Translations under genes and position numbers: made by a program
Part shown: positions 24,610 to 64,000 of the stretch, piece after piece
Layout of the letters: the number at the start of each line of letters is the position of its first letter
Position numbering within the stretch: the first letter of the stretch is position 1
Notes under the pieces: generated by a model
The model's input: only the letters and a program-made list of their open reading frames with translations
What the model was told of the DNA's origin: nothing
The model's database searches: none
Assembly (NCBI GenBank): GCA_902792535.1
Contig: CADAZU010000001.1
Location: 116,218 to 180,217 of the forward strand
Source of the DNA: an uncultured Bacteroidales bacterium
GTDB taxonomy: Bacteria; Bacteroidota; Bacteroidia; Bacteroidales; Paludibacteraceae
Direction: 5' to 3'
DNA: 64,000 nt

Positions 24610-25636
24610 TTGGAGTAAATTGGGATTTCATTATACCGAACCGGACTACATCGTCCGCTCGGCATACCATGACGGCGTGTGGGAAGAACCGTACGCCACG
24701 CAGGACAAGTTTTTGCATTTGCATGTATCCGCCACTTGTCTGCAATACGGACAAGAGGCTTTTGAGGGGCTGAAAGCATTCCGCGGAGTAGATGGGAAGA
24801 TCCGTATTTTCCGCTGGCGCGAGAACGCCAAACGAATGGCGCGGAGTGCGGAAGGGCTGTATATGGCTCCTGTGCCAGAGGAGATTTTCGGCAAAGCGAT
24901 TCATTTGGCGTTGAAGAAGAATATGGATTTTGTTCCGCCTTACGGAACAGGAGCAACGCTGTATTTCCGTCCGCTGCTGATTGGCACGACGCCGCGGCTG
25001 GGTGTGGGTCCGGGCAGGGATTTTGAGTTTATCGTCATTCCTTCGCCGATTGGTCCGTACTATCCGGGCAAGTTCCATTGCACAACGTTTGTGGTGAACC
25101 GGCATGTGGACAGGGCGGCTCCTTTCGGAACGGGTACATTCAAAGTCGGAGGCAATTATGCTTCTTCGTTCCGCGCGACAGAACCGGCGCACGCGCAAGG
25201 AATGGATTGTCTGTTCCTCGACGCCAAATATCATCGGTATATTGATGAGTGCTCGGCGGCGAATTTTATTGGAATTAAGAAGCTTTCAGCTGTCAGCCAT
25301 CAGCCGTCAGAGATTGAATACCTGACACCGCGGAGTAGTGCAATTCTGCCGAGTATCACGAATGACAGTCTGATGACATTGGCGCGTGATAAGGGGTATA
25401 AAGTGACGCGGCGGCATATACGGCTGGAGGAGTTGGAGGAGATGAGCGAAGCGGCAGCTTGCGGCACGGCTTGCGTGATCAGTCCGATCGACAAAGTGAT
25501 CGACCCGGAGAAGAATAAGATCTACCACCTGAGCGACCAGCCGGGACCGGTTTTGACGGATCTGTACCACACGCTGAAGGATATTCAGTATGGACGGGCG
25601 GAAGACACGCATGGATGGTGCGAAGTGATTAACTAG
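24596..25636 (+). CDS. ilvE: Branched-chain amino acid aminotransferase
   Basis: 346 residues, PLP-dependent class IV fold. Seen: YGQEAFEGLKAFRG, IRIFRWRENAKRMARSAEGLYM, LYFRPLLIGT, the PLP lysine in GTGTFKVGGNYA, LFLDAKYHRYIDECSAANFIGI, and ACGTACVISPIDKV. Transfers amino groups between glutamate and branched-chain 2-oxo acids in the cytoplasm. ATG 24596 chosen over an adjacent TTG. A TCAGC heptad repeat at 25284-25310 is read in frame as LSAVSHQPSE in the loop just after FIGIKK. Confidence 0.92.
   Translation: MKEIDWSKLGFHYTEPDYIVRSAYHDGVWEEPYATQDKFLHLHVSATCLQYGQEAFEGLKAFRGVDGKIRIFRWRENAKRMARSAEGLYMAPVPEEIFGKAIHLALKKNMDFVPPYGTGATLYFRPLLIGTTPRLGVGPGRDFEFIVIPSPIGPYYPGKFHCTTFVVNRHVDRAAPFGTGTFKVGGNYASSFRATEPAHAQGMDCLFLDAKYHRYIDECSAANFIGIKKLSAVSHQPSEIEYLTPRSSAILPSITNDSLMTLARDKGYKVTRRHIRLEELEEMSEAAACGTACVISPIDKVIDPEKNKIYHLSDQPGPVLTDLYHTLKDIQYGRAEDTHGWCEVIN
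25284..25310 (+). repeat. TCAGC heptad repeat inside ilvE
   Basis: Four 7-nt units, in frame as LSAVSHQPS. Confidence 0.8.
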
Positions 25637-42332: not shown

Positions 42333-45300
42333 TTATTTCACTTTTTTGCCGGTTGCATTAAATATTGCGCCCTCTTTCGTAATAATATAAATCTCATTCC
42401 CGATCAGAACCTTGCGATTGCCGTCCTTTTCGCCGTTAATCTCATCCATTCCGGTGGTGACTTGCGGAGCGTTGACAACCTCCATCTGCAGACCGTAGCC
42501 TTCCGTCGTTCCCTTCGTCAGGTCAAGGCTGTACGGGCTTGCCGTCAGATCCCAAATCACGTTGCCGTTATAAGTCAGATAGAGATTAGCATCTTCCGGT
42601 GCCTTCTCTATAGCAAGGGAGTACGTCATTGCCTTCGGCGCGTAAAGTTTCAAATCACAGATAGCATTATTATCCGTCAGAGTCAGATTATTGCTACATA
42701 GATTCATACCGTTACGCACACTCCAGATACGTGCCACATTGGATTCGTTCATTGTCCCCATCTTGAGAACATCACGACCTATGATATAGTCACCTGTAGC
42801 CTCTTCGTCCGCCGAAACCCATAAATAATCAGAAGCATATGTATTTCCATCAGCGGTCAATGACAAGCGGAAATTATCAACATTTCTGCCTTCGCGGGAA
42901 GGTGCGAGGAATTTCGTATTCCCTACTGCTTGCACTAATTCTACTGTTTCATCTTGAGCGAGTTGGGTAAAGAATGTCATTCCAACAACTATAGTGAAAT
43001 CCTTAGCTTCACGCGGTTGATAACACATATTGGCATGATCATATACTTGAATAATCTGGGTTTCTCCATCAACATTCAACTCTGTATGATGCAATGTGCC
43101 GTTTCCAAATCCATTCCAGCCATTATCTTTTGCTTCGGCTCCCAAACCTGAGTATTCCGTTACTAATGTGCGGTCACCCGTTAGTGCGGCACTCGCCTTC
43201 TTCTTGAAAACAACGGTATTCCAGTCATAGTCATCGTCCAATGCGATGGTATATACCTTGCCGGGTTTCATTGTTCCTTGGAATTTATTCCAATCCTTTC
43301 CTTTTACGGCGCGTTTTGACTCCGTATAATCCATCACAGCATAGTTGACATTGAATTTCATTACAGCAGAAGGATCTTCAGCGATACTTATGCCACCTAT
43401 TACATCCACTTCGAAAGGAACAGTAAAGTCATACCATCCGTATGTATTGCGCCCTGACGGATCAAGTGCCAACTGGAAATATGCATCTCCATTGACTTCG
43501 AGTTGATTCTCTTGAAGAACTTGACCGGAGTTCGCAGATGTACTTGCGTCATTGGTGTTAATGCCCAACTTGGCATCCAGTATAAAGTCGCGCACTTTCA
43601 ATTTGGCATTGTTGCCTAAGATGAGTGAACCGGTTTCCTGAACATGTACATCTCCGTATTCCTCCAGTTCGGCGCTCTTTCCGTTCACAGTCAGCGTGCC
43701 GTTCAATGTCATCGTTACACTTCCGCCGCCCTCAATAGTCATGTTGTGCACCTCTACATCGCTGGTGATTGTCACATGACCTTGGATAATCACATCCTCC
43801 GCATTGCTCGGTGCTACGCCTTCTGCCCAGTTACTGCCGGTATTCCAATCGCCGTCACCGGTGAAGATATAGCCTGTCGTGTTAATCGTGATGTCTACCG
43901 GGATTTCTACCTCGTCATACCACTCGGTTCGTTCCGGACGGAAGACAAGAATAGCGCTTGTCTCGCGACAGTACGGAATATGGGTAGGATTCTTCCACTC
44001 GAATACGCCGGCTATTTCCGGTTTCGCCGGATCGATATAGTCAATAGCCTTTCCGGAGCCATTAAGCACTAATTCCGATACCTTAACGCCGTAATCGGCC
44101 GGCTCGGTAGTAAAGTTATGGTCGATAGCCGGAGCAAAACGACGTACCTCCACGCTGAATGCACATGCCTTCGGCTCATAGATATTTTTGTTATACGGAA
44201 TAAAGACTGCCTCGCAAGTATTCATACCCGGATTGTCCATCAGTTTCTCCGGCTCCAGCCATGTGAAGCTTCCATATACCTCCTGTCCGCCGGTATAAGC
44301 CTGTCCGGTCGGAGTGGAATTACTCAGGAAGTGGTGAACGTACATGTAGGTAGCGGACAGATTATCCAGCGTCAACTGATTGCGCTTGAGCGTAATCTGC
44401 TTGCTTACATTCTCCGCCGGCGCATAGGTATCATCGCCTGCTTGCGTTGCCGTGATGGTAACTACGCCGTATTTCAGCACTTTCAAATGATCCCCCTCGG
44501 CATAAGCAATCGTACTATCGGAGGAGTGATATACAACCGCCAATCCGCTGGTGGCGGTAGCATCCAATGCGATGACATCGGCGCACCACTCTTCGCTTTC
44601 TGCCGCACGGCTCCATGTGATAGTCTGCGGAGTCTTCAATATCTCTACCTCTACCTCAAATGCAACGGTCTCATAATAATCGTCATCCTCCGGATCAAAG
44701 ACTGCCGTATAAGTGGCAACACCCTTGGTCACGCTAATGGTCGCATCCTGCCAACGGAACGTTCCCGCAATGCCGCCATCTACGCTTCCGCCTTCTAATG
44801 TCGAGCCTGCCAATGTATTCGGCAGAACGACACCTGTTGCTGTCGGATAACTCAAGATATTCGGTGTCACGCGGCTGATATGGTATGTCAACGTCTTATC
44901 CGTTGCGGCACTCCAGTTCTCGTTGCCTGTCTGATGAGCCGTGATCTCCACATCGCCGTATTTCTTAATATCCAGCGAATAAACTCCGCCCTCACATACT
45001 ACATCAGCTATATCCGTATTACCCGAAGTGAAACTTACCGGCAACTCACTCGTAGCCGTTGCGCTCAATACGACTTCATCGGTTGTCAGCACATCCAGTT
45101 CCGGCTCCCAAGTAATCGTCTGCGAAGGCAGTACTACCGTAGCCGATACCGGAATACGGAGACTCTGGTCTGCATTATGAACGATTATGGTATTATTCTC
45201 TGTACCTAACGTACTTCCCGTACAACTGATATCAATACGTACATTCTTTGCTGCGTCACCGCAGTCCTCACCAACTGTAGTAGTAACTACCGTAAACTGC

Positions 45301-48300
45301 GTATTCTCCTTATTCTCCATCTCTACATCCAACACACCACTTAGGTTCGAATAGTTGATGTAGAAACTCTGCGTCTTGGTCGAGCCCTTATCCACCTGCG
45401 AGAAATTCATCGTATTCTCTGCCAACTCCAGATACTTAGCCAGCGGAATTTCCACATTCTTGAAAGTACGAGTCATCGTTGCACCCGTCTTGGTATAGAG
45501 TCTCACAGCAGTAGCATTACGATGCAACGGGAAACTATAGTACTGATAGTCCGATGTGATATTGGGTTTGCCTGTTCGCGAGATTTCCTGAATGTCATGG
45601 AAAGCCCCATTATACTCTTCAGCAACCCACATTCCCCATAAAGCATCCCAATCACACTTAGCCCAGAATGTTACGGAATCCGGTTCTCCATAAATAGGAA
45701 TATCTTTTACAGCCAGAGTATGCAGAGTATACGCATCTTTGTATTCACCAACTAACGGACGGCATTTCGCATTCGGGTTTCTCGATACCAAACTCTTCGA
45801 TGCCTGAACTGCCACATATTCCTCGTTACCTACTTGCTTGGCAATTACCTGACCGCTTCCCCAGTCTGTCAACGACAACACATTACCGTTGATGGAAGCG
45901 AAAGTTTGTGCATCTTCATCCAACTCATACGTAATTGGCAGACCTGCCGACGAAGTAGCCGTCAACTCAATCTCTACCGTCTGACCTTCTTTGCGTTTTC
46001 TATTGGATAAGTTATCTGTCCAGGTGATATATTGTACTTTCAAGGTCGTTACCTCTATATCCATGTAGTCTGTTGTCTCTGCCCATTTGGTACTACCTGC
46101 CGCAGTCGCTGTCACACGCGCCGTACCTGCAGATACAGGTTCCAAAGTAGTATTGTTCACTACGCGTACAATCTCCGGATGATCCGATTCCAGCGTCACA
46201 GCCTGACCCGTGGAAACCATCGCTGCATTCTGGAATGAACCTTCTATCGGCATCGGCGTCAAGTCATTACGCCAGATAATAGTCTGCGGAGCAGGAGTCG
46301 TCTGACCATTCAGCGTAACATCGGCATAATTACCATCCACATCCTCGATACGCAACGTAGCGGTATGCGTGGTCTCAGAATTGGTCTCGTGTTTGTACGA
46401 CACCAATAAATCTACCGTACCATAGTGATCCAACTGCGAATTTATCGTCTTAGATCCCTCGTCCAGCACAAACTTATCTGCATCCGTTCCGGTAATAGTT
46501 ACCGTACACGGCTTCACGTTGTACCAATCTACCGTGATCGCACGCATGGTTGGATCGTTTCCATTATAGCCCAGACCAAAGTCCTTCGTAGCATCTCGCG
46601 GCGCAATCTCCTTACGCTCCGTAACATGCACATTCTTAAATCGGCCACCATAGTTACCATGATACTCCAATTTGATATACTGCGTAGCCGGATCCAACTG
46701 TAGATTACTCTCACTTCCCGAAGAGGTACCACCGGACGCATTCATCAACAGATCTTGATACTCCTTGATCAACTCCCAATCCGAACCATTACTACTCTGG
46801 TAAAAATGCCAACCATATTGGGTTGCGATACTTGATGCATTCTCAAAATCAAAACTCAGTTTATCCGGAACACCCACAAATTTAAGGATAATATATTTTG
46901 CTGACCAATCGAAATAATCTCCGGTTGTCGGCAAAAGTACTGATGTATTGGGCTTTCCGCATAGCACACCATCATTCCATGAAACATTTCCTGCATATCC
47001 GCCTTTATAATCCTCAAAATTGCTGTTATCCAACGTCATCGGCAGTCGGTTATTCGGCTGGAAGATCTCAAACGTCTTCTGGTAGTTCACTACCGCATTG
47101 TACTTATAGTTAGCATCCTGATTAACCGTAAAGGTCACATTGCCCGAAGTTCCATATACAAAAATCTTATCTTCCTCTTTGATGTATTTTGCCAAGCTCT
47201 CATTGCTCGAAGTTATCTGCAACTCCTTCTCTGTATTCAGCGACTTGAACGGATGCTCGATAATCGAGTACCACGCATGGCGGTTGTTCAGCTCGGTCGA
47301 TACCTTCGGATCACGTTTGTTGACGGTAATTGTCTTGCTCTGACTGATTCCCGTCCAGTATTCCGTAGCGGGCTGCGAGAATGTAACGGTGTTCGTTCCA
47401 GCCAGCAGAGCAATCAGCTTGCCGTCCTCGTATTTCATGCTGCCCTCCGGCGTACAGGAGAACTGTACCGCATCGGTCGTATTTGCCAAACCGGTATAGG
47501 ACACCTCAATCGTATCTTCCACAAGCATGGTTGCCGTATTCGTCAGCGTCATTGCCGACGTATTGCGCTGTACGGTAAACGTATATACTATCTCGCGAGG
47601 GAAGAGACGCTCCGTTCCGGGCTGCGAGAGGGTCAAGGTCTGCACACCGTTGCCGACGATTGCACCCTTCTCGGCACGAACCGTTATGGTGCGGTGCTCC
47701 GCATCATGAGTATAGCTGATGTAAGCAAGCTCCGATGCCGTACCGATAGCGAAAAGATTATCCGTATTCTCGTTATAGGTGATGGTAGCGGTCTCGCCGA
47801 TAGGCAGAGTCTTGGATACGGCTTTATCGGTATGACCGTCCATCGTGAAATGCGGCGAACGCTTTGCACGAACGGCATAGTTGTGGGTGGTTTCCACTAC
47901 AGCATAATACAAGTCGTCTTCTTTCGTAGAAGCCGTAATCATTACATTCACAGCACTACCTTCTTCTTCGACCACGTCACGAGCCTTCAAGTAAGGATAC
48001 TTATTCGAATCTGTAGTCGATCCTACATAGATAGCGATATCATTCGACTCATATTGTACCTTACGGTCAATTACCTTATCGTTATACATTCTGGCAGCCG
48101 GTTCACCGATACTATCGCCCGAATAGATGATTTGCGGATCATCCGTGTTGTCGAATACAATCGTCGGAGTCAGTTTATTCACCGTCACCGTAAACTCAGC
48201 TGAATCTGCCTTATAATAAGAGGTTTGCGCCTGCGTCGCGCGTATAGTGTAAGTGCCCACTTGCGTAGCAGAGAACTTATTCTCGCCGTCTATCGCTGCT

Positions 48301-51089
48301 TTCGCCTTATTTTCGCTGATCACCTTGTACGATACGACTCCTGCACGGCTGGAAACAGCATCTACTACCTTCTCTTTTACTAAATCATCCAAATCAATCT
48401 TGCACTCATTGAGATCATCGTTGATGCCAGAAACTTTCACAAGAACCTCACCGTTATTCATCTCAATACCGCCATCTGCACGACTAACCGTCACACTCTG
48501 CGCAAAGGTCGAACTTTTGTACATGCCGCCATCCGTCGGAGTGAAAGTAATCATATAATCATGACTTCCCGCAGCATCATTAACAGTTGTTCCATTAAGC
48601 GTTTTCCAAGTAAACGTACCATCCACCTTTGTATCAGGCACACCTCTCAGCGTTACTGTTGCCAAGCCTTCACTCAACTGACTATTTGCAAAAGTTCCCT
48701 TGTACTTAATCTCTGCAACACTCGGATTCGTTGCAATATTAGGAGTAACTTTATTAATCGTAATATCATGTGTCGTTTCAAATTCCTGAGAAATAGCATC
48801 TCCCGGCTGATAAGCACGGATAGTTGCTGTACCCGAACCCGTAAATGTCATTACACCCGTATTCGTAATAGTTACGATATTTGCAGGATTGGAAGTGGTC
48901 GGAGTAAAAGTAAAGTCCGTATTATCTACCGTTGTAGATGCTTGCAATGTAACTTGGTCTGTTGTATTATACGTATTGGCAATATTCCATGACTTTAAGA
49001 ATTGCTCCTGTGCCGTTACAGACGCCGACAAATCAATTGTATGCAGCAAGTCACCTACATTATTGCGGACATACAGTTTATCCGTATACTCACCCTTTGC
49101 ATTCGAAAGGAATGTAACCGTCACAAGCTGCGAACCTTTCTTTCCACAACCGCCAAAATGCGAAGTGTTTACACTCCACAAACTCTTACCAGACGAAACG
49201 CCTGCATCCTCATCCGATTTGAAAGAAAGGAATACCGGAATATTAGAATAAGTCACCGTTATTTGCTTGCCTAATGATTGACCAGGATCTGTTGAGTAGG
49301 AAAGTGTATTTAACGAAACCGAAGAAGTGGTATTTCTGGTCGTTTGAACATTGCTGATAGTATATGAATATCCCAGATATGCACCTGCATTGAAACGAAT
49401 ACGAGTCGTATTGGCATTGCAGTTTATACTACGATTTGTTCCGGATGTACTAATATCTCCGTATCCTATAGTCGTCTTTTCAAGTTGGGTTCCGCTTGCG
49501 TTATATTGAATAACCTCAAGATCAGCCAAGAATGCAATACTCGATTTTGTCACTCTAAATGTAAGTTGTTTTGGTACAGTTGGATAAATATCAAAATTCT
49601 TGCTATCTCTATTCAGTGTACCGCCGCTATGGTTATCCGAAGTAGCACACGGATCGGTCATGTTAATCACCGTAGCATATTTGGTAACAGAAGCGGGGGC
49701 GTAACTTGCATTTCCGGCAACGGAAGCAGTAATAGCTACCGGACCACCTAATGCACGAACGGTCAGCACATTGCCCGACAAACTCAACGATGCGTTGGAT
49801 GCCATCGAATAGGTCACAGGCAAGCCTGATGCCGCTCCTGTTTTGGCATTCTTTGCTACGGCACTCAATGTAATTGTGTAAGGCATATTCTCGTTACTCA
49901 AGTCCGCAATATCATCCGTCCATTCTATTTCTTGCGGAGTAAGATTAGTCACATTCAGCGTAAATGCCTCAGAATATGCAGCATAATAAGTCTTTGTATT
50001 CTTTGCAAGATTTGCCGTTACAGACAAGTTATTGATTGTGCCGCTAATATCTTCACGAACAGTCAAAATAGGATTTCCTTCTCCGTCTGTTCCTGACGTA
50101 AAATAACTTGAGTTGAAATCGCTATAAGAAATCGTTTGTCCCGTTGTGCAACTTGCACGCAGCACATCGCCTGCACTAAGCGTCGTCTCTCCACTCGTCA
50201 ATTCATTACCATCTCCATCTACCCAAGTAATCGAAGGTTTGTTATAACCGGTCCCTTTCAGATAATAGGTAAGCGACGAAAGTCCATTATCGCTACTTAC
50301 GGTAAGCGTACAAGTGCGCAAACCATTGGAAGTCGGCTTAAATGTAATGGTAATATTCTTTGTATCTTCTGCAACAGAAGTAAAGGAGCTCTCCGAAAGT
50401 ACAAAATCATCACTGTGACCTGATTTTGACAAACTAACTGTCCCCGCATGAGCATGATTAATCGTCAAAGTCTGAGTCCCTGACTCTTCTCCTACTACTA
50501 TATCACCAAATTGGAATGTACCCCCGCTTGCCGTTGTACTTGCCAAACGAGCAAAAATAGCATAATAATCATATGATTCACCACCTATGCCCAAAACTTT
50601 TGCGGTACCATGTACAGTAACTTTATATGGTACAGCCGTAGAACCACTCAAAACTGTATTCGATTTATCAGTATTCCAACCTTTAAAGGTATAACCTGAA
50701 TTAGCTTTGGCACATAACCACAAATTAACGTCGCCACTAGAATGCCAACTTTTTGAAGCTGAATTTTCTCCGTCATCTGTTGATTTTGTCGCATTGGAAG
50801 CACTACAATTTGAACTAGTGCCTACATATACATAACCTCCATCAGACGGATTAGCCGCTGCATTTATCTTAGCATACCACGTTCCACCCCACGCCTGCGT
50901 ATTCCAGCCGCCCAAAAAGAGCAGCAGAAGGGCTATTAGCGAAACACGAGACAGATACGAGACAGATACGAGACGATAGACAGAGTGATTCATCACTCGG
51001 TCTTCTCTCGGTTGTCGGTCGCTCATCGCTCGGTCGAGCGTTTTAGCGTAAAGCCAATTGAATATACTTCTAAAACTCATCTTTTTCAT
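42333..51089 (-). CDS. Giant secreted multi-domain Ig-like surface protein (2,918 residues)
   Basis: An unusually long N-terminus precedes the hydrophobic export segment VSLIALLLLFLGGWNTQAWG (~50-68), after which the mature protein starts near GTWYAK. An InlB-like region (GYTFKGWNTD), a choice-of-anchor-D-like module (TLTINHAHAGTVSLS), and many Big/MBG-type Ig repeats marked by recurring QTITW, VTITATQAGD and IAxNPSVAEI-like phrases follow. A discoidin-like segment sits near 1,370, and TGDGDWNTGSNWAEG starts a late beta-helical domain near 2,530. The end (KVLIGNEIYIITKEG, FNATGKKVK) is the shared C-terminal tag. Likely an adhesin. A simple repeat encodes part of the leader region, so ATG 51089 may not be the ancestral start. 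Confidence 0.85.
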   Translation of the reverse strand: MKKMSFRSIFNWLYAKTLDRAMSDRQPREDRVMNHSVYRLVSVSYLSRVSLIALLLLFLGGWNTQAWGGTWYAKINAAANPSDGGYVYVGTSSNCSASNATKSTDDGENSASKSWHSSGDVNLWLCAKANSGYTFKGWNTDKSNTVLSGSTAVPYKVTVHGTAKVLGIGGESYDYYAIFARLASTTASGGTFQFGDIVVGEESGTQTLTINHAHAGTVSLSKSGHSDDFVLSESSFTSVAEDTKNITITFKPTSNGLRTCTLTVSSDNGLSSLTYYLKGTGYNKPSITWVDGDGNELTSGETTLSAGDVLRASCTTGQTISYSDFNSSYFTSGTDGEGNPILTVREDISGTINNLSVTANLAKNTKTYYAAYSEAFTLNVTNLTPQEIEWTDDIADLSNENMPYTITLSAVAKNAKTGAASGLPVTYSMASNASLSLSGNVLTVRALGGPVAITASVAGNASYAPASVTKYATVINMTDPCATSDNHSGGTLNRDSKNFDIYPTVPKQLTFRVTKSSIAFLADLEVIQYNASGTQLEKTTIGYGDISTSGTNRSINCNANTTRIRFNAGAYLGYSYTISNVQTTRNTTSSVSLNTLSYSTDPGQSLGKQITVTYSNIPVFLSFKSDEDAGVSSGKSLWSVNTSHFGGCGKKGSQLVTVTFLSNAKGEYTDKLYVRNNVGDLLHTIDLSASVTAQEQFLKSWNIANTYNTTDQVTLQASTTVDNTDFTFTPTTSNPANIVTITNTGVMTFTGSGTATIRAYQPGDAISQEFETTHDITINKVTPNIATNPSVAEIKYKGTFANSQLSEGLATVTLRGVPDTKVDGTFTWKTLNGTTVNDAAGSHDYMITFTPTDGGMYKSSTFAQSVTVSRADGGIEMNNGEVLVKVSGINDDLNECKIDLDDLVKEKVVDAVSSRAGVVSYKVISENKAKAAIDGENKFSATQVGTYTIRATQAQTSYYKADSAEFTVTVNKLTPTIVFDNTDDPQIIYSGDSIGEPAARMYNDKVIDRKVQYESNDIAIYVGSTTDSNKYPYLKARDVVEEEGSAVNVMITASTKEDDLYYAVVETTHNYAVRAKRSPHFTMDGHTDKAVSKTLPIGETATITYNENTDNLFAIGTASELAYISYTHDAEHRTITVRAEKGAIVGNGVQTLTLSQPGTERLFPREIVYTFTVQRNTSAMTLTNTATMLVEDTIEVSYTGLANTTDAVQFSCTPEGSMKYEDGKLIALLAGTNTVTFSQPATEYWTGISQSKTITVNKRDPKVSTELNNRHAWYSIIEHPFKSLNTEKELQITSSNESLAKYIKEEDKIFVYGTSGNVTFTVNQDANYKYNAVVNYQKTFEIFQPNNRLPMTLDNSNFEDYKGGYAGNVSWNDGVLCGKPNTSVLLPTTGDYFDWSAKYIILKFVGVPDKLSFDFENASSIATQYGWHFYQSSNGSDWELIKEYQDLLMNASGGTSSGSESNLQLDPATQYIKLEYHGNYGGRFKNVHVTERKEIAPRDATKDFGLGYNGNDPTMRAITVDWYNVKPCTVTITGTDADKFVLDEGSKTINSQLDHYGTVDLLVSYKHETNSETTHTATLRIEDVDGNYADVTLNGQTTPAPQTIIWRNDLTPMPIEGSFQNAAMVSTGQAVTLESDHPEIVRVVNNTTLEPVSAGTARVTATAAGSTKWAETTDYMDIEVTTLKVQYITWTDNLSNRKRKEGQTVEIELTATSSAGLPITYELDEDAQTFASINGNVLSLTDWGSGQVIAKQVGNEEYVAVQASKSLVSRNPNAKCRPLVGEYKDAYTLHTLAVKDIPIYGEPDSVTFWAKCDWDALWGMWVAEEYNGAFHDIQEISRTGKPNITSDYQYYSFPLHRNATAVRLYTKTGATMTRTFKNVEIPLAKYLELAENTMNFSQVDKGSTKTQSFYINYSNLSGVLDVEMENKENTQFTVVTTTVGEDCGDAAKNVRIDISCTGSTLGTENNTIIVHNADQSLRIPVSATVVLPSQTITWEPELDVLTTDEVVLSATATSELPVSFTSGNTDIADVVCEGGVYSLDIKKYGDVEITAHQTGNENWSAATDKTLTYHISRVTPNILSYPTATGVVLPNTLAGSTLEGGSVDGGIAGTFRWQDATISVTKGVATYTAVFDPEDDDYYETVAFEVEVEILKTPQTITWSRAAESEEWCADVIALDATATSGLAVVYHSSDSTIAYAEGDHLKVLKYGVVTITATQAGDDTYAPAENVSKQITLKRNQLTLDNLSATYMYVHHFLSNSTPTGQAYTGGQEVYGSFTWLEPEKLMDNPGMNTCEAVFIPYNKNIYEPKACAFSVEVRRFAPAIDHNFTTEPADYGVKVSELVLNGSGKAIDYIDPAKPEIAGVFEWKNPTHIPYCRETSAILVFRPERTEWYDEVEIPVDITINTTGYIFTGDGDWNTGSNWAEGVAPSNAEDVIIQGHVTITSDVEVHNMTIEGGGSVTMTLNGTLTVNGKSAELEEYGDVHVQETGSLILGNNAKLKVRDFILDAKLGINTNDASTSANSGQVLQENQLEVNGDAYFQLALDPSGRNTYGWYDFTVPFEVDVIGGISIAEDPSAVMKFNVNYAVMDYTESKRAVKGKDWNKFQGTMKPGKVYTIALDDDYDWNTVVFKKKASAALTGDRTLVTEYSGLGAEAKDNGWNGFGNGTLHHTELNVDGETQIIQVYDHANMCYQPREAKDFTIVVGMTFFTQLAQDETVELVQAVGNTKFLAPSREGRNVDNFRLSLTADGNTYASDYLWVSADEEATGDYIIGRDVLKMGTMNESNVARIWSVRNGMNLCSNNLTLTDNNAICDLKLYAPKAMTYSLAIEKAPEDANLYLTYNGNVIWDLTASPYSLDLTKGTTEGYGLQMEVVNAPQVTTGMDEINGEKDGNRKVLIGNEIYIITKEGAIFNATGKKVK
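50943..50982 (-). repeat. ACGAGACAGATACGAGAC repeat in the giant gene's leader region
   Basis: Tandem GATACGAGACA units within the codons for the extended signal-peptide N-region (HSVYRLVSVSYLSRVS); related to 31206-31263. Confidence 0.65.
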
Positions 51090-53265: not shown

Positions 53266-53385
53266 CTTTTAAATGCTTTTGCATTACGTGCTTTGCGTTA
53301 TTGCCCGATAAACCTCCTTGTGAGTAAACTCCCAGATAGTTTTATCGTCCAATCCCGCCCCCTGAAGGGTTTAAGCATTTAAAAG
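53266..53385. repeat. Long-stem element B1
   Basis: CTTTTAAATGCTT (53266-53278) pairs perfectly with AAGCATTTAAAAG (53373-53385). Interior has smaller arms. The left side starts AAACCCTTTT and the right side continues CAATAAACATAAA, as in element B2 at 56438-56557, where the stem bases differ but still pair. Confidence 0.7.
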
Positions 53386-56437: not shown

Positions 56438-56557
56438 CTTTTGAAGGCTTTGAGCTTTGCTCTTGCGTACTTTGCTGCTAAAAACTCCTCGCAAGCAAGC
56501 TTTCGGATAATTTTTACCAACAAACTCCGCAACTCTGCGAGTAAAAGCCTTCAAAAG
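56438..56557. repeat. Long-stem element B2
   Basis: CTTTTGAAGGCTTT (56438-56451) pairs perfectly with AAAGCCTTCAAAAG (56544-56557). The interior contains GCAAGCAAGCTTTC, close to the AAGCAAGCTT core of the A elements. Flanks match B1 (AAACCC left, CAATAAACATAAA right). Confidence 0.75.
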
Positions 56558-58687: not shown

Positions 58688-58691
58688 GAAA

Positions 58692-58721
58692 CCCCACCCC
58701 GACCCTCCCCTCTAGGGAGGG
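58692..58721. repeat. GGGAGGG palindromic repeat after the 56822 gene
   Basis: CCCTCCC-CTCTA-GGGAGGG preceded by CCCCACCCCGA, starting just after the stop codon. Confidence 0.75.
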
Positions 58722-58728
58722 AGGAATG

Positions 58729-58760: not shown

Positions 58761-58809
58761 TGCGGAGAGGTATTATGAAGCCGCTGTGGTACGCTTGTGA
58801 GGCGCTTAC

Positions 58810-58890
58810 TAACCTACGAATCACCTACGAATCACCTATGAATCACCTAAGTATCACCTATGTATCACCTAAGAATCACCTAAGAATCGC
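58810..58890 (+). repeat. CACCTA(C/T/A)GAAT tandem repeats
   Basis: About seven ~11-nt units such as CACCTACGAAT, CACCTATGAAT, CACCTAAGAAT. No spacers, so not CRISPR. Similar in style to 22598-22637. Confidence 0.75.
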
Positions 58891-59047
58891 TAATAGTTTA
58901 CAGCATGCAAACAGGGAGGGAAGAGGGCGGAACGGACGGAAGAGGGACGGCGGAAGGTATCGTTCGAGCAGAGCGAGATAAGAATACCACCGGAAACAGG
59001 ACAATAAGAGGGGAAAAGGATGCAAAAAGGAGAAAAAAACACAAAGA

Positions 59048-59079: not shown

Positions 59080-59162
59080 CACGCTTTTTGTATTTTTATA
59101 CAAAAGTAATAGTACATAAACATAGATAAACCCTTTTGAAAGCTTTAGGAAATCGAAAATAC

Positions 59163-59286
59163 GCAGCCCCCGAGCCAAATGGCTCTTGCGCCCAAGTCCC
59201 TGTATGCCGGTCAGTAAGCAAGCTTCCTGCCGTCATTCATGCCCTTGGTCTCCATCGATTTGCCTAAATAGGCACCGATGGGCTGC
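59163..59286 (+). ncRNA. Structured element A1 (leader of SGNH esterase)
   Basis: Closing stem GCAGCCC (59163-59169) / GGGCTGC (59280-59286). Arms: P2 GAGCC-AAAT-GGCTC; P3 CCAAG (59192-59196)/CTTGG (59244-59248) enclosing TATGCCGG/CCGTCATT and an AAGCAAGCTT core; P4 TGCCTA-AA-TAGGCA. Flanked on the left by an AAACCCTTTTGAAAGC run and on the right by TTACAAAAATAT and AAGAAAATAAG. Three more copies follow with compensatory changes. Whether it acts as RNA (leader, sRNA) or as DNA repeat is not known. Confidence 0.6.
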
Positions 59287-59385
59287 TTACAAAAATATAT
59301 AAGAAAATAAGAAAAATCTATGCAGCGCGTAGGTCGGAGTATATCGCAACAATAGTATTACAAAACCATTAAAACACACATTAAG

Positions 59386-61254
59386 ATGAAGAAATTATTT
59401 ACAATTCTGATGGCGGCGGTGATGGGACTGCCGATGGTGAACGGGGCAATCAAAGTACACACGATCGGAGATTCGACGATGGCTGAGTACGACGAGAACA
59501 CCACCGACAAACGAGGCTGGGGAATGTATCTGGGTTCGTTCTTCGATCCCGCCTTTGTGACGGTGAACAACCGCGGCAAGTCCGGCGCAGACACCCGCGG
59601 TTTCTACACAGGTGCGGGTTACTGGCCAAGCGTGAAGAGCCAGATGAGCGCAGGCGATTACCTGATTATTCAGTTTGCGCACAACGACGAAGGAACCGTG
59701 ACCAACGGAATGGATAATTTAGAGTACGCTGAATATTGTCAGGCGAAGGGTTTGCCGGCTCCGACGGACGCACGCGGAACGAATCCGCAGACGACTTACC
59801 GTGAGTTCCTGCGGCTGTTTATCGACGAGGCAAGGGCATTGGGCGTGAACCCGATTTTGGTAGGTCCGATCTGCCGCAAGTATTTCAGCGGCAACACGAT
59901 CCGCCGAAACGGTCAGCACGACTTGGGCGACAAGTTCAGCAAGATTGAGAACGGCGTGCTGTACGAGAACCAGAGTCTGCCTGCGGGTGACTCGACGATG
60001 AGTTATGTGAAGGCAATGAAAGTGGTAGCAGCGGAGAAGGGAGTGCCTTTCATTGACCTGACGGCGGCGACGAGAGATATGTATCTGGAGTACGGCGAGG
60101 CGCAATGTACGCAGTTGCTGTTCTGCAACGGCGATAATACGCACACGAACGCGATGGGCGGAAACCTGATTGCAAGGCAGGCTGCGCAGATGATGAAAGA
60201 GGCCGGAATCTTAGCAGAATATATCACGATTCCGACTTCCATTACGGCGAACCCTGCGTCGATCGAAATCGGCGAGACGTACAGCGGCGTAGCACAGAAC
60301 AAAGAGTTTCTGTTGACAGGCTTCGGTCTGGAGCCCGCCAGCGGAACGATATCGCTTCATGCGACAGGCGCTTTGACGATTTCGACAGACAAAGAGAACT
60401 ACGACAAGACGCTGCATGTCAGTTATGCCGGCAGTACCTTATTCCAAAAGATTTACGTGCGCGCAAGCTATGAGAACGAGGGTGAGAACAAGGATTCAGT
60501 TGTTGTTACGTTCGGCGAGAATAGTGTGTGCGTGCCGGTAAGCGCGAGTGTTATTTCGCTGGCAGGCGGAAGTGCGGTGAGTGCGACATGGGCGATCGAC
60601 GCGAAGCCTGTTCCAGAGGCAGTAGTAAGCGGTCCGATCAGCGCGGCGTTCAGCATGAGCAATATGATGGCAGCGGATGTGAAGAGCGAGTTCAGCGACG
60701 GAACGGCAAATGATATTGCGATGGTTCGTTTCCACAACGCGGACGCATCGGGTGCGAAGACGGCATGGCCGGCAGGCGAGATCGACGAGAACGCAAGCCG
60801 GTACCTGGATTTCGCGATTACTGCTCCGGCGACGATGGAAGTGCGTATAACCGGTATCTCTATGGACATCGCTTCGCACAGCACCTCGACCATGTGCTAT
60901 CATATCAACACCGGTTTCGGAGAGGATTTCACGGGCGTGAAGACGATTGCGGAGAAAGTACACATCCCCAACAAGTCGATCGAGCATTTGGCGATTACTC
61001 CGACGCTGACCGTAGCTGTGGGCGAGACGCTGCATGTACGGATTCTGCCGTGGCACGATTTAGGCGAAGAGAAAAGCGGCAAGTACATCTGCGTGAAGAA
61101 CGTGGTGATCGAAGGTCAGGCTTTTGAGCCGGTACAAGGAAACCTCACCCCGACCCTCCCCTCAAGGGAGGGAGTGAAGATACTCCGGGACGGCGTGCTG
61201 CTGATCGAACGAAACGGCGTGGTTTACAATGCGCAGGGCATGGAAGTGAGATAA
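59386..61254 (+). CDS. SGNH-type (rhamnogalacturonan) acetylesterase, secreted
   Basis: 622 residues. Signal peptide MKKLFTILMAAVMGLPMVNG. SGNH domain (~22-285): block I HTIGDSTMAEY, block II NRGKSGADTRGF, block III LIIQFAHNDEG, block V DNTHTNAMGGNLIA. This matches CE12-like rhamnogalacturonan acetylesterases that remove acetyl groups from pectin. Two beta domains follow (ITANPASIEIGETYSG, LHVSYAG). The end (VKILRDGVLLIERNG, YNAQGMEVR) is the shared tag. A palindromic repeat just before the tag is read in frame as LTPTLPSREG. Fits the GH28/DUF4861 pectin theme upstream. Confidence 0.88.
   Translation: MKKLFTILMAAVMGLPMVNGAIKVHTIGDSTMAEYDENTTDKRGWGMYLGSFFDPAFVTVNNRGKSGADTRGFYTGAGYWPSVKSQMSAGDYLIIQFAHNDEGTVTNGMDNLEYAEYCQAKGLPAPTDARGTNPQTTYREFLRLFIDEARALGVNPILVGPICRKYFSGNTIRRNGQHDLGDKFSKIENGVLYENQSLPAGDSTMSYVKAMKVVAAEKGVPFIDLTAATRDMYLEYGEAQCTQLLFCNGDNTHTNAMGGNLIARQAAQMMKEAGILAEYITIPTSITANPASIEIGETYSGVAQNKEFLLTGFGLEPASGTISLHATGALTISTDKENYDKTLHVSYAGSTLFQKIYVRASYENEGENKDSVVVTFGENSVCVPVSASVISLAGGSAVSATWAIDAKPVPEAVVSGPISAAFSMSNMMAADVKSEFSDGTANDIAMVRFHNADASGAKTAWPAGEIDENASRYLDFAITAPATMEVRITGISMDIASHSTSTMCYHINTGFGEDFTGVKTIAEKVHIPNKSIEHLAITPTLTVAVGETLHVRILPWHDLGEEKSGKYICVKNVVIEGQAFEPVQGNLTPTLPSREGVKILRDGVLLIERNGVVYNAQGMEVR
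61143..61172. repeat. GGGAGGG palindromic repeat inside SGNH esterase gene
   Basis: CCCTCCC-CTCAA-GGGAGGG preceded by CCTCACCCCGA; in frame as LTPTLPSREG between the last domain and the C-terminal tag. Confidence 0.8.
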
Positions 61255-61277
61255 GATGTTTTAGAAATCGAAAATGC

Positions 61278-61401
61278 GCAGCCTACCGAGCCTGATGGCT
61301 CTCGCGCCCAAGCCCCTGAATGTCGGAAAGTAAGCAAGCTTCCTGCCGCCATTCATGCCCTTGGACACCACCGAACGCCTTAATAGGCGTCGATGGGCTG
61401 C
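61278..61401 (+). ncRNA. Structured element A2 (between SGNH esterase and mlaE)
   Basis: Closing stem GCAGCC(T) / (G)GGCTGC; P2 GAGCC-TGAT-GGCTC; P3 CCAAG/CTTGG enclosing TGAATGTCGG/CCGCCATTCA, nearly fully paired, with the AAGCAAGCTT core; P4 ACGCCT-TAAT-AGGCGT, different bases from A1 but still paired. Right flank TTACAAAAATATAAGAAAAT as in A1. Confidence 0.6.
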
Positions 61402-61464
61402 TTACAAAAATATAAGAAAATAAGAAAAATGAATAGAAGGAGAGAAGTCGAAAGACATTAAACG

Positions 61465-62202
61465 ATGCGAATATTACAACATATAGGTGAGTATTTTCTG
61501 CTGATGGGTCGGGTGCTACGGCTGCCCGACCGTCAGCGGATGTTCTGGCGGCAATACAGCCGCGAGTTGGAGAAGCAGGGTCTGCAGAGTCTGCCGATCG
61601 TGCTGATCATTTCTGTTTTTATCGGTGCAATCCTGACCATTCAGGCGAAGACGAATACCGAGAACCCGCTGCTGCCGACTTACACGGTGGGACTGCTGAC
61701 GAGAGAGACGCTGCTGCTGGAGTTTTCGAGCACGATATTGTGTCTGATTCTGGCAGGAAAGGTGGGTTCGAATATCGCTTCGGAGATCGGCACGATGCGG
61801 ATCACAGAGCAGATCGACGCTATGGAGATTATGGGTGTGAACAGCGCCAATTACCTGATTCTGCCGAAGATTTTAGCGTTTGTGACGATGATGCCGATGC
61901 TGGTGATCATTTCGACGGCTGTGGGTCTGGTCGGCGGCTGGGCTGTGGGTGCGTTCACAGATATCATCACCGTGCATGACTACCTTGTTGGCGTGCAGTA
62001 CGCGTTCAATCCGTATTACGTGTGGTATGGGATTATCAAGAGTCTGGTGTTTGCGTTTGTGATTACGAGCATGAGCAGTTACTACGGCTACAACGTACAC
62101 GGCGGAGCTTTGGATGTTGGACGGGCGAGTACGAATGCAGTCGTTAACTCGAATATAATGATACTGTTTTTGGACCTCGTTTTGAGTAAGTTGCTGCTAT
62201 GA
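61465..62202 (+). CDS. mlaE: MlaE family lipid-transport ABC permease
   Basis: 245 residues, five or six membrane segments. LQSLPIVLIISVFIGAILTIQ, LLLEFSSTILCLILAGKVGSNIASEIGTMR and ITEQIDAMEIMGVN are hallmark MlaE sequences. Inner-membrane permease of an Mla-type phospholipid transporter that maintains outer-membrane lipid asymmetry; partner ATPase is encoded at 62977 but a GxxExxY gene and repeats are inserted between. Element A2 lies directly upstream. Confidence 0.9.
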   Translation: MRILQHIGEYFLLMGRVLRLPDRQRMFWRQYSRELEKQGLQSLPIVLIISVFIGAILTIQAKTNTENPLLPTYTVGLLTRETLLLEFSSTILCLILAGKVGSNIASEIGTMRITEQIDAMEIMGVNSANYLILPKILAFVTMMPMLVIISTAVGLVGGWAVGAFTDIITVHDYLVGVQYAFNPYYVWYGIIKSLVFAFVITSMSSYYGYNVHGGALDVGRASTNAVVNSNIMILFLDLVLSKLLL

Positions 62203-62523
62203 TGGGATTAAACGAAAATGCGCAGCCATTTTGGCCTATACGGCCTTGAGCGTAAACGACTATTAATTCGCGTCTTTGAGCAAGCTCAATACGCGCCTTA
62301 ATAATCATTTTCGCTCGTTGACGCCCCAAAGGGGCGACAACATGGCTGCTTACAAAAATATAAGAAAATAAGAAAAATAATAATTACTGACGGCTGAAGA
62401 GAGACTGATGTTAGCAGATGTATCCAGAGGAGGGCGAATATGCGTAGCCTATTTGAGAGGAAGTCGAAAATGCACAGCCCATTGAGTACAAATCAAAATA
62501 ATAGAAATAAGAAAAATAAAGAA
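62203..62523. other. Repeat-containing gap inside the mla operon
   Basis: Holds element A4, a short TGACGGCTGA motif (62387-62397, reverse of the TCAGC repeat) and a partial A-like start/tail (CGAAAATGCACAGCCC at ~62465 and AAATAAGAAAAAT at ~62506). No gene seen before ATG 62524. Confidence 0.6.
62222..62349 (+). ncRNA. Structured element A4 (divergent copy, between mlaE and GxxExxY gene)
   Basis: Closing stem GCAGCCAT / ATGGCTGC (8 bp, extended relative to A1 by matched changes); P2 GGCC-TATAC-GGCC; P3 with GAGCG/CGCTC, GCGT/ACGC and a TTGAGCAAGCTCAA core; P4 GTTG-A-CGCCCC-AAA-GGGGCG-A-CAAC. The same architecture as A1-A3 with almost wholly different arm sequences. Right flank TTACAAAAATATAAGAAAAT is conserved. 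Confidence 0.6.
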
Positions 62524-62976
62524 ATGGAAACGAAAGAGAGGACAAGTATACGAATTGTGGAGGAGCCTAAACGGCAGGAATTGAAGGAGTTATGCTATGG
62601 AATAATCGGTTGCATGCAAGAAGTACACAATCAATTGGGCGCAGGTTTGCCGGAATATATCTATCAGGAAGCATTGGCTACCGAATTAACCGCAAACGGT
62701 TATACCATCCATAAAGAGTTTGAATACCACCCTGTTTACAAAGGGAAAGAGATGAAAAGCCATCTTCGGATGGATTTAGTGGCAGAGAGCGAAAAAGGAA
62801 ATATTATCATCGAATGCAAAGCACTAAGCGATCTGACCGAGAAAGAGCGCTATCAGGCATTGGGATACCTTCGTGCGACCGGATGGTCTATCGCTTTATT
62901 GGTCAATTTCGGGGCTAGTCCAAAGGCTCAGATTGAGCGATATTACTATGACAGAGAAACCATATACGTTTTTTAG
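62524..62976 (+). CDS. GxxExxY protein (PD-(D/E)XK nuclease superfamily)
   Basis: 150 residues. Signature GAGLPEYIYQEAL contains GxxExxY; RMDLVAESEKGNIIIECKAL gives the D...ExK active-site pattern, and LGYLRATGWSIALLVNFG the typical C-terminal part. Function of the family is unknown; it is often found in repeats or inserted among unrelated genes. ATG 62524 chosen because the upstream in-frame ATG (62440) lies in repeat-derived sequence. The stop TAG is directly followed by the mlaF ATG, so insertion retained tight coupling with the operon. Confidence 0.85.
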   Translation: METKERTSIRIVEEPKRQELKELCYGIIGCMQEVHNQLGAGLPEYIYQEALATELTANGYTIHKEFEYHPVYKGKEMKSHLRMDLVAESEKGNIIIECKALSDLTEKERYQALGYLRATGWSIALLVNFGASPKAQIERYYYDRETIYVF

Positions 62977-63741
62977 ATGATAGAAGTAAAAGATATCGTA
63001 AAGAGTTTTGACGGGAATGTGGTGCTGGACCATGTTTCGACGGAGATGCGGGACGGAGAGGTGAATATGATCATCGGTCAGTCCGGCAGCGGTAAGACCG
63101 TTCTGATGAAAAGCCTGATCGGTCTGCATGCCGTGGATAGCGGACAGATATTATATGACGGTCGGGACTTAGCCAAAATGCGGAGCAATGACATCCGGAT
63201 GTTACACCGCGAGGTGGGAATGTTGTTCCAAGGCAGCGCGCTGTTCGACAGCATGACCGTGATGGAGAATGTGCTGTTTCCGATGGAGATGTTTTCGCAC
63301 AAGAGCCGCGAAGAGATGCAGGAACGTGCAGCGTTCTGTTTGCGACGGGTGGAGATGCCGGAACGGGTTTGGAACCTGATGCCGAGCGAGATCAGCGGCG
63401 GTCAACAGAAACGTGTGGCAATCGCACGCGCGATTGTGTTAGAGCCCAAATACCTGTTCTGCGACGAGCCGAACTCGGGTCTGGACCCGAAGACGAGTCT
63501 GGTGATCGATGCGCTGATCCAGGACATTACCAAGGAGTACAACATCTGCACGATTGTGAACAGCCACGACATGAACTCGATCATGGAGATCGGGGACAAT
63601 ATCGTATTCCTGAAAGGCGGGAAGAAAGAATGGCAGGGCAGCCGGCACGAGATCATGGACAGCGAGAACGAAGCGCTGAATGACTTTGTGTTTGCGAGCG
63701 AGTTGTTCAAGCGGGTAAGAACCGCTTCGCTAAATGAATAA
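62977..63741 (+). CDS. mlaF: MlaF family lipid-transport ABC ATPase
   Basis: 254 residues. Walker A GQSGSGKTVL (~32-41), Q-loop MLFQGSALFD, signature ISGGQQKRVAIARAI, Walker B YLFCDEPNSGLDP, switch His NSHDMNSI. DPKTSLVIDALI after Walker B and FQGSALFDSMTV are typical of MlaF. Energises phospholipid transport with MlaE. Starts immediately after the GxxExxY stop. Element A3 follows. Confidence 0.92.
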   Translation: MIEVKDIVKSFDGNVVLDHVSTEMRDGEVNMIIGQSGSGKTVLMKSLIGLHAVDSGQILYDGRDLAKMRSNDIRMLHREVGMLFQGSALFDSMTVMENVLFPMEMFSHKSREEMQERAAFCLRRVEMPERVWNLMPSEISGGQQKRVAIARAIVLEPKYLFCDEPNSGLDPKTSLVIDALIQDITKEYNICTIVNSHDMNSIMEIGDNIVFLKGGKKEWQGSRHEIMDSENEALNDFVFASELFKRVRTASLNE

Positions 63742-63821
63742 TGAATAATTAGTAGTGTTGCGATAATTTTAAGAAAAAAAATATAAAAACCCTTTTGAAG
63801 GCTTTAGGAAATCGAAAATGC

Positions 63822-63944
63822 GCAGCCCCCGAGCCTAATGGCTCTTGCGCCCAAGTCCCTATATGCCGGTCAGTAAGCAAGCTTCCTGCCGCCATTCATG
63901 ACCTTGGTCTCCATCGATTGCCTAAATAGGCACCGATGGGCTGC
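63822..63944 (+). ncRNA. Structured element A3 (downstream of mlaF)
   Basis: Closing stem GCAGCCC / GGGCTGC; P2 GAGCC-TAAT-GGCTC; P3 CCAAG-type arm with AAGCAAGCTT core; P4 TGCCTA-AA-TAGGCA. Very close to A1 including both flanks (AAACCCTTTTGAAGGC left; AATCTATGCAGCGCGTAGG right), apart from a CCCTTCGGGATTGG insertion after AAAAATAT. It probably leads into a gene beyond the window. Confidence 0.6.
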
Positions 63945-64000
63945 TTACAAAAATATCCCTTCGGGATTGGAAAATAAGAAAAATCTATGCAGCGCGTAGG

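Follow-up and report, generated by a model that had tools for sequence, protein, structure and literature searches.

A four-way-junction repeat associated with GxxExxY nuclease genes in Bacteroidales: a candidate compact mobile element

What are the structured repeats of about 125 nucleotides (nt) that recur near the end of a 64,000-nt stretch of DNA (here called the window; contig CADAZU010000001.1, positions 116,218 to 180,217) from an uncultured Bacteroidales bacterium of the family Paludibacteraceae? An earlier note on this DNA described four of them, A1 to A4, and offered a leader regulator, a family of small RNAs, or a mobile structured element as explanations. We found that the element is structurally conserved and covarying, that it is associated with one branch of the GxxExxY protein family, and that its presence varies at fixed sites between close species. 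The reading that we favor, and consider rather probable, is that A1 to A4 and two sister copies, X1 and X2, represent the structured end of a compact mobile element of Bacteroidales, in which a GxxExxY nuclease gene is the only one recognizable. In related gut bacteria, junction and gene together resemble a mobile element of a very compact kind that has not been described. The last suggestion of the earlier note gains support; a family of small RNAs is possible.

Each copy consists of a closing stem, a short hairpin, a long imperfect hairpin of about 57–70 nt, and another short hairpin, which make a four-way junction. A fold descriptor of topology only (a closing stem of at least five pairs, three single hairpins, and size limits, with no sequence information) recovered the limits of A1 to A4 exactly as they had been drawn, and the conserved parts and P4 pairing alternatives named at that time are present in the copies. 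On the + strand, the folding z-scores of A1 to A4 ranged from −4.5 to −9.3, and for each copy 0 of 200 shuffles folded as well. While all four copies were found again, X2 and, less securely, X1 had been overlooked. The copies in the window, with the parts conserved around A4, are as follows.

53266 to 53385, − strand: X1, a probable sister copy (descriptor energy −40.7 kcal/mol; closing stem CTTTTAAATGCTT/AAGCATTTAAAAG; limits from 13-nt arms)
56438 to 56557, − strand: X2, a sister copy (descriptor energy −48.1 kcal/mol; closing stem CTTTTGAAGGCTTT/AAAGCCTTCAAAAG)
59163 to 59286, − strand: A1, four-way-junction element (descriptor, folding z-score, covariance model)
61278 to 61401, − strand: A2, four-way-junction element in the interval between the SGNH gene and mlaE (descriptor, covariance model)
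62213 to 62221, + strand: conserved outer end of A4, CGAAAATGC, on the 3′ side of the better-folding strand
62222 to 62349, − strand: A4, four-way-junction element upstream of the GxxExxY gene (− strand fold, −74.5 kcal/mol)
62350 to 62379, + strand: conserved inner tail of A4, TTACAAAAATATAAGAAAATAAGAAAAAT
63822 to 63944, − strand: A3, four-way-junction element that follows the ABC ATPase gene (descriptor, covariance model)

A covariance model of the A copies matches X2 with 21 bits (E 0.019). The energy of X1 by itself is not separable from that of coding false positives, and we call it a probable copy on the strength of its long closing stem and of flanks common to X2 (repeat families D4 and D6). 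The descriptor made further matches in the window, four below −46 kcal/mol (the best, −52.2, at 24969–25111) and two more below −44; these six are taken as coding false positives.

Is the fold itself maintained? We examined 44 cores, 35 from the pattern and nine cut by eye from the flanks of GxxExxY genes. With the four outer pairs forced, exactly three branches stood on the closing stem in 43 of them, and branch 2 kept a steady length of about 51–70 nt despite sequence change. Closing stems differ in sequence entirely between GxxExxY loci. When their limits were set by flanking sequence, independent of the fold, 95.3% of cells were paired across 39 rows versus 64.0% with arms reassigned, and 93.1% versus 63.2% across 12 distinct arm pairs (0/5000 in both cases); apex flanks delimited in the same way gave 77.1% versus 51.9% for 12 distinct sequences (0/5000). 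In a nine-sequence alignment, with the structure taken from A4, covariation was 0.183 versus 0.112 in shuffles (0/500), slid structures reached at most 0.131, and 19 pairs were changed on both sides versus 11.7 in shuffles (0/500), with further pair types in this alignment no more frequent than chance (148/500). Only 67.5% of its cells pair because the sequence aligner sets two helices out of register. The last helices are also out of register in a sequence alignment of all variants, and the covariance model built from it, with 26 pairs, was used only for finding copies. The covariation and closing-stem results bear out the earlier proposal of a selected fold with compensatory change.

On which strand is the fold selected? 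All copies had been placed in gene direction, which is probably the wrong strand because the − strand fold is stronger: it was lower in energy for 34 of 35 distinct copies (mean −55.9 versus −46.7 kcal/mol) and better by z-score in 28 of 35 (mean −5.3 versus −4.1; A1 and A3 are among the seven exceptions). Mismatches were counted with G·U pairs forbidden, and the count therefore favors neither strand. Single mismatches on the − strand of the 44 cores were G·T 17 times and A·C three times (18 versus two when the other strand was folded), and among 23 representatives seven times and three times (seven versus two); the excess of G·T over A·C also counts against gene direction. On the better strand, 74 of the 100 single mismatches were purine–purine. 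The strand asymmetry points to the − strand and to RNA, with single-stranded DNA also compatible. The strand with the better fold runs antisense to the gene that follows A1, A2, and A4, and at GxxExxY loci the antisense fold was better in 20 of 22 upstream copies. Under the favored reading, the junction would be selected chiefly on the strand running outwards from the gene, most likely as RNA.

The junction might instead be selected as single-stranded DNA, as a bottom-strand hairpin or cruciform that is the substrate of a junction-cutting enzyme. The four-way topology and the Hjc-like fold matches of the GxxExxY protein (below) suit this explanation, whereas the strand asymmetry, the G·T and purine–purine mismatches, and the C(TTCG)G loop of a single lineage (genome G175) suit RNA better, DNA being still compatible with all of them. 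We regard it as possible but somewhat unlikely. Control of host genes is a different matter. Copies between genes could be kept as structured RNA ends at which transcripts stop or are processed, and T-rich sequence often stands behind the closing stem on the better-folding strand. However, presence differs between close species, GxxExxY is the sole fixed gene partner, and the antisense orientation at A1, A2, and A4 is awkward for a cis regulator or terminator, which we therefore find improbable. A leader regulator in gene direction, as the earlier note had suggested, was rejected as the principal explanation on strand, on varied gene positions, and on presence and absence.

How widely does the element occur? 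The host genome (2.37 Mb, 82.65% complete) contains 11 matches to A1 and, at a loose threshold, 15 to A4, many of them to the tail only. A strict pattern gave 10 matches, three of them very divergent, and 0 when reversed; a survey of 300 genomes from the family, covering 33 genera, found it in 11, all of a single genus. Copies follow stop codons, precede the start codons of genes that diverge, separate convergent genes, or flank GxxExxY genes, and solo copies also occur as intergenic tail-to-tail pairs of 320–440 nt. Some A1-type copies (flanks of loci L002, L004, and L006) are nested in a larger repeat whose outer arms, CTTTTGAAGGCTTT/AAAGCCTTCAAAAG, are the closing stem of X2; one repeat family was apparently inserted into the other, A1-type within X2-type arms.

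Fixed sites were compared between close species. In genome G275, which has an identical MlaE, mlaE and mlaF overlap. In the host genome A4 and the GxxExxY gene stand between the two, and in G267 only the element does. Element and GxxExxY gene are also found there in G175, the element with degenerate tail repeats in G288, and in G304 and G201 (loci L061 and L062) a four-helix-bundle gene of the 23S rRNA intervening-sequence (IVS) type (PF05635) with GACCGC-hairpin flanks. The mlaE–mlaF overlap junction is an insertion hot spot. In the relative G247, no A2 lies between the SGNH gene and mlaE. A second site carries the element in the host genome and G304 and lacks it in G275, G319, G201, and G267; in G275 another insert is found there.

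The gene next to A4, and a repeat that lies within its annotated limits, are these.

62440 to 62976, + strand: GxxExxY protein (TIGR04256/PDDEXK_3); relatives suggest a start at 62524
62460 to 62486, + strand: degenerate copy of the element's outer end, GTCGAAAATGCACAGCC (repeat family D5)

The protein matches TIGR04256 with 106.6 bits (E 9.3e-31), exceeding the curated cut-off of 35, and PF13366 with E 3.1e-29. The catalytic D, E, and K residues (ExK motif) are invariant across 12 and across 57 aligned relatives. There was no sequence match in PDB, and a PADLOC search gave a weak Cas4 match (E 0.0011). The predicted structure of 149 residues is confident, with a mean pLDDT of 94.6 and a pTM of 0.88. 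With this model, Foldseek returned as best match SSO0001, which we take to be a Cas4 (E 2.6e-4 to 7e-4), followed by Hjc Holliday-junction resolvases (from E 1.8e-3) and, more weakly, R2 retrotransposon proteins (6.6e-3). Across the order, 295 genomes were searched and 167 had GxxExxY matches. In one publication, GxxExxY is a neighbor of a reverse transcriptase (PMC8934634).

Does the junction accompany such genes elsewhere? We took the best 80 of 138 loci from named genome records, retrieved by protein similarity alone. They are mostly from rumen Bacteroidales and Paludibacteraceae, and also from Prevotella, Prevotellaceae, Bacteroidaceae, and Muribaculaceae. At descriptor energies (E, in kcal/mol) below −40, a junction was called upstream of 34/78 and downstream of 34/77 GxxExxY genes, compared with 2/78 and 0/77 in shuffles and 6/73 and 4/70 in stretches 1.1–1.5 kb away. 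At E < −35, the calls rose to 40/78 and 41/77 (shuffles, five and four), and a junction stood in at least one flank at 59 of the 80 loci and in both at 22. The 11 element-bearing genomes have 20 GxxExxY matches, and most of those read are flanked upstream, downstream, or on both sides, with L109–L111 unflanked. In these genomes, which were picked for carrying the element, GxxExxY genes had a junction at E < −35 upstream in 14/20 and downstream in 8/18, and four-helix-bundle genes from the same and two further genomes in 4/26 and 3/25, a background level. Among GxxExxY genes of the order, the 30 with the highest scores, which are of a more classical form, had junctions at this threshold in only 1/28 upstream and 2/28 downstream. 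The element is associated with one branch of GxxExxY. Palindromic repeats of the CACAGAGTT type (hairpin score at least 12) flank classical genes upstream in 6/27 and downstream in 3/28; controls gave 0/26 at 700–1000 nt away and, for shuffles, 0/27 upstream, 2/28 downstream, and 0/26 distally. Several classical genes of other Bacteroidales families (L279–L308, e.g., L287 and L302) are flanked by low-complexity palindromes of the CACAGAGTTACACAAAG or CCACAGATTACACAGAT type.

Fuller units measure 740–995 nt and run from inverted repeat through junction, GxxExxY gene, and inverted junction to inverted repeat. Descriptor calls below −33 kcal/mol lie on both sides at 24 of the 80 loci, at least one of which (L129) has its downstream call in coding sequence. 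Outer flanks align as inverted repeats with a score of at least 11 in 12 of 16 compared units; for example, L208 has ACAAAAACAATAAAAACA on each side. Under the favored reading, A4 with its GxxExxY gene would be the local unit, lacking the right junction, and A1, A2, A3, X1, and X2 would be gene-less derivatives resembling miniature inverted-repeat transposable elements (MITEs). The GxxExxY protein would most likely bind the junction, in the form of RNA or of extruded single-stranded DNA, and cut DNA; in this way the unit would be copied into intergenic A+T-rich sites or retained there.

An ordinary transposase encoded elsewhere in the genome could also move MITE-like elements, with GxxExxY as a passenger. 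Like MITEs and insertion sequences, the units have terminal inverted repeats, one gene or none, and intergenic copies, many copies are gene-less, and copies often have no adjoining GxxExxY gene. Here, however, the subterminal elements form junctions and the units read have no recognized transposase, while GxxExxY is repeatedly the enclosed gene, in several families, with no other gene seen between the junction pairs examined. The Y1 (HUH) transposase domain gave weak, partial matches (best 28.6 bits) in 8 of the 11 element-bearing genomes (above the cut-off in six) and none in three; DDE transposases were not searched. We judge this explanation rather doubtful. Insertion of the junction RNA in trans by a reverse transcriptase, as for short interspersed nuclear elements, would make the conserved outer end the RNA 3′ end. 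It would fit the RNA-like strand asymmetry, the host copies L005 and L007, which keep this 3′ end without the RNA 5′ side, and the R2 nuclease domain among the weaker Foldseek matches. However, RVT_1 was found in only 2 of the 11 genomes, some of which are incomplete, in none of the four that are at least 90% complete, and not in the host genome. The truncation pattern rests on two cases because the shortened copy L006 is an internal deletion, and we consider this route very improbable.

Is the element a known one? No Rfam family was found in the window at the gathering threshold, and none but tRNAs in 10 related loci; with E up to 5, the only match was a chance one to RUF1 (19.4 bits versus a gathering score of 70). 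HEARO, the RNA of IscB–omegaRNA systems, and likewise TnpB–reRNA, combine a compact structured RNA and a nuclease gene in one unit with gene-less copies, much as here. However, the HEARO/IscB nuclease is HNH/RuvC and GxxExxY is a small PD-(D/E)XK protein, and here the junction is on both sides of the gene. HEARO membership was rejected, as no Rfam model matched and the adjoining gene is PDDEXK_3/TIGR04256, not HNH/IscB. Integron attC sites resemble the element in size range and single-strand folding; this identity was also rejected, with RYYYAAC/GTTRRRY core boxes near the ends in 0 of 35 elements. Repetitive extragenic palindromes and bacterial interspersed mosaic elements with RAYT genes share intergenic palindromic copies, often in tail-to-tail pairs, but consist of single hairpins and not four-way junctions, and for the Y1 domain expected with RAYT genes there were only the weak, partial matches given above. 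The 23S rRNA IVSs with S23 genes likewise are selfish, carry one small gene, and have palindromes at their flanks; a gene of this kind lies at mlaE–mlaF in G304 and G201. The four-helix-bundle genes here, however, lack junction flanks beyond background. The element is not described in the literature searched, which mostly excluded subscription papers; an unnamed entry is possible in a survey of thousands of candidate RNAs from the human microbiome.

Several observations weigh against the mobile-element reading. Mobility, transcription or RNA nature, and the role of the nuclease are what we infer. No consistent target-site duplication was seen by eye in the flanks of solo copies and compared units, and ATGAT at mlaE–mlaF, a possible five-base duplication, is suggestive only. 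A unit's own inverted-repeat arms scored above every foreign pair in only 6 of 16 units, because an A-rich motif is common to units, and only 10 of 16 are clearly inverted by better-folding strand. At GxxExxY loci, the sense fold was better in only 10 of 20 downstream copies. Distal controls at E < −35 were positive in 14/73 and 12/70, because coding stretches yield false positives. Since the classical form has no junction, most of the GxxExxY family has no need of one. The host genome has one GxxExxY gene only, and many copies lie far from any. Finally, the resemblance to Hjc may reflect mere membership of the PD-(D/E)XK superfamily: TM-scores are moderate (0.35–0.53), and the predicted fold thus gives the superfamily and a hint only.

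A more specific version holds that this is a new class of mobile element in which the GxxExxY PD-(D/E)XK nuclease works with a four-way-junction RNA from both unit ends, either guided to DNA by the RNA or recognizing the junction. We put it forward tentatively, as an unlikely proposal. If true, GxxExxY, a protein family of unknown function, would turn out to be a nuclease for mobility that has a structured RNA of its own. GxxExxY proteins are common and have intact nuclease residues without a known function, and the link of one branch of them to a structured, strongly covarying element makes function testable. If the pair is a working unit, it would be a nuclease–RNA (or nuclease–junction) mobile system outside the families tested. 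The mobile-element reading would also account for intergenic repeats of rumen Bacteroidales that would otherwise be taken for host regulatory RNA.

Three other features of the window deserve mention. Downstream of a gene that encodes InlB-repeat domains, tandem 11-nt units (ACCTAYGAATC) occupy 58801–58899, with seven or more copies in register. A 36-nt repeat with the palindrome GGGAGGGAG occurs at 58688–58723 and 61139–61174; the copies are 94% identical, and the second is in frame within the SGNH gene. The longest open frame of the window, at 42333–51089 on the − strand, spans 2918 amino acids.

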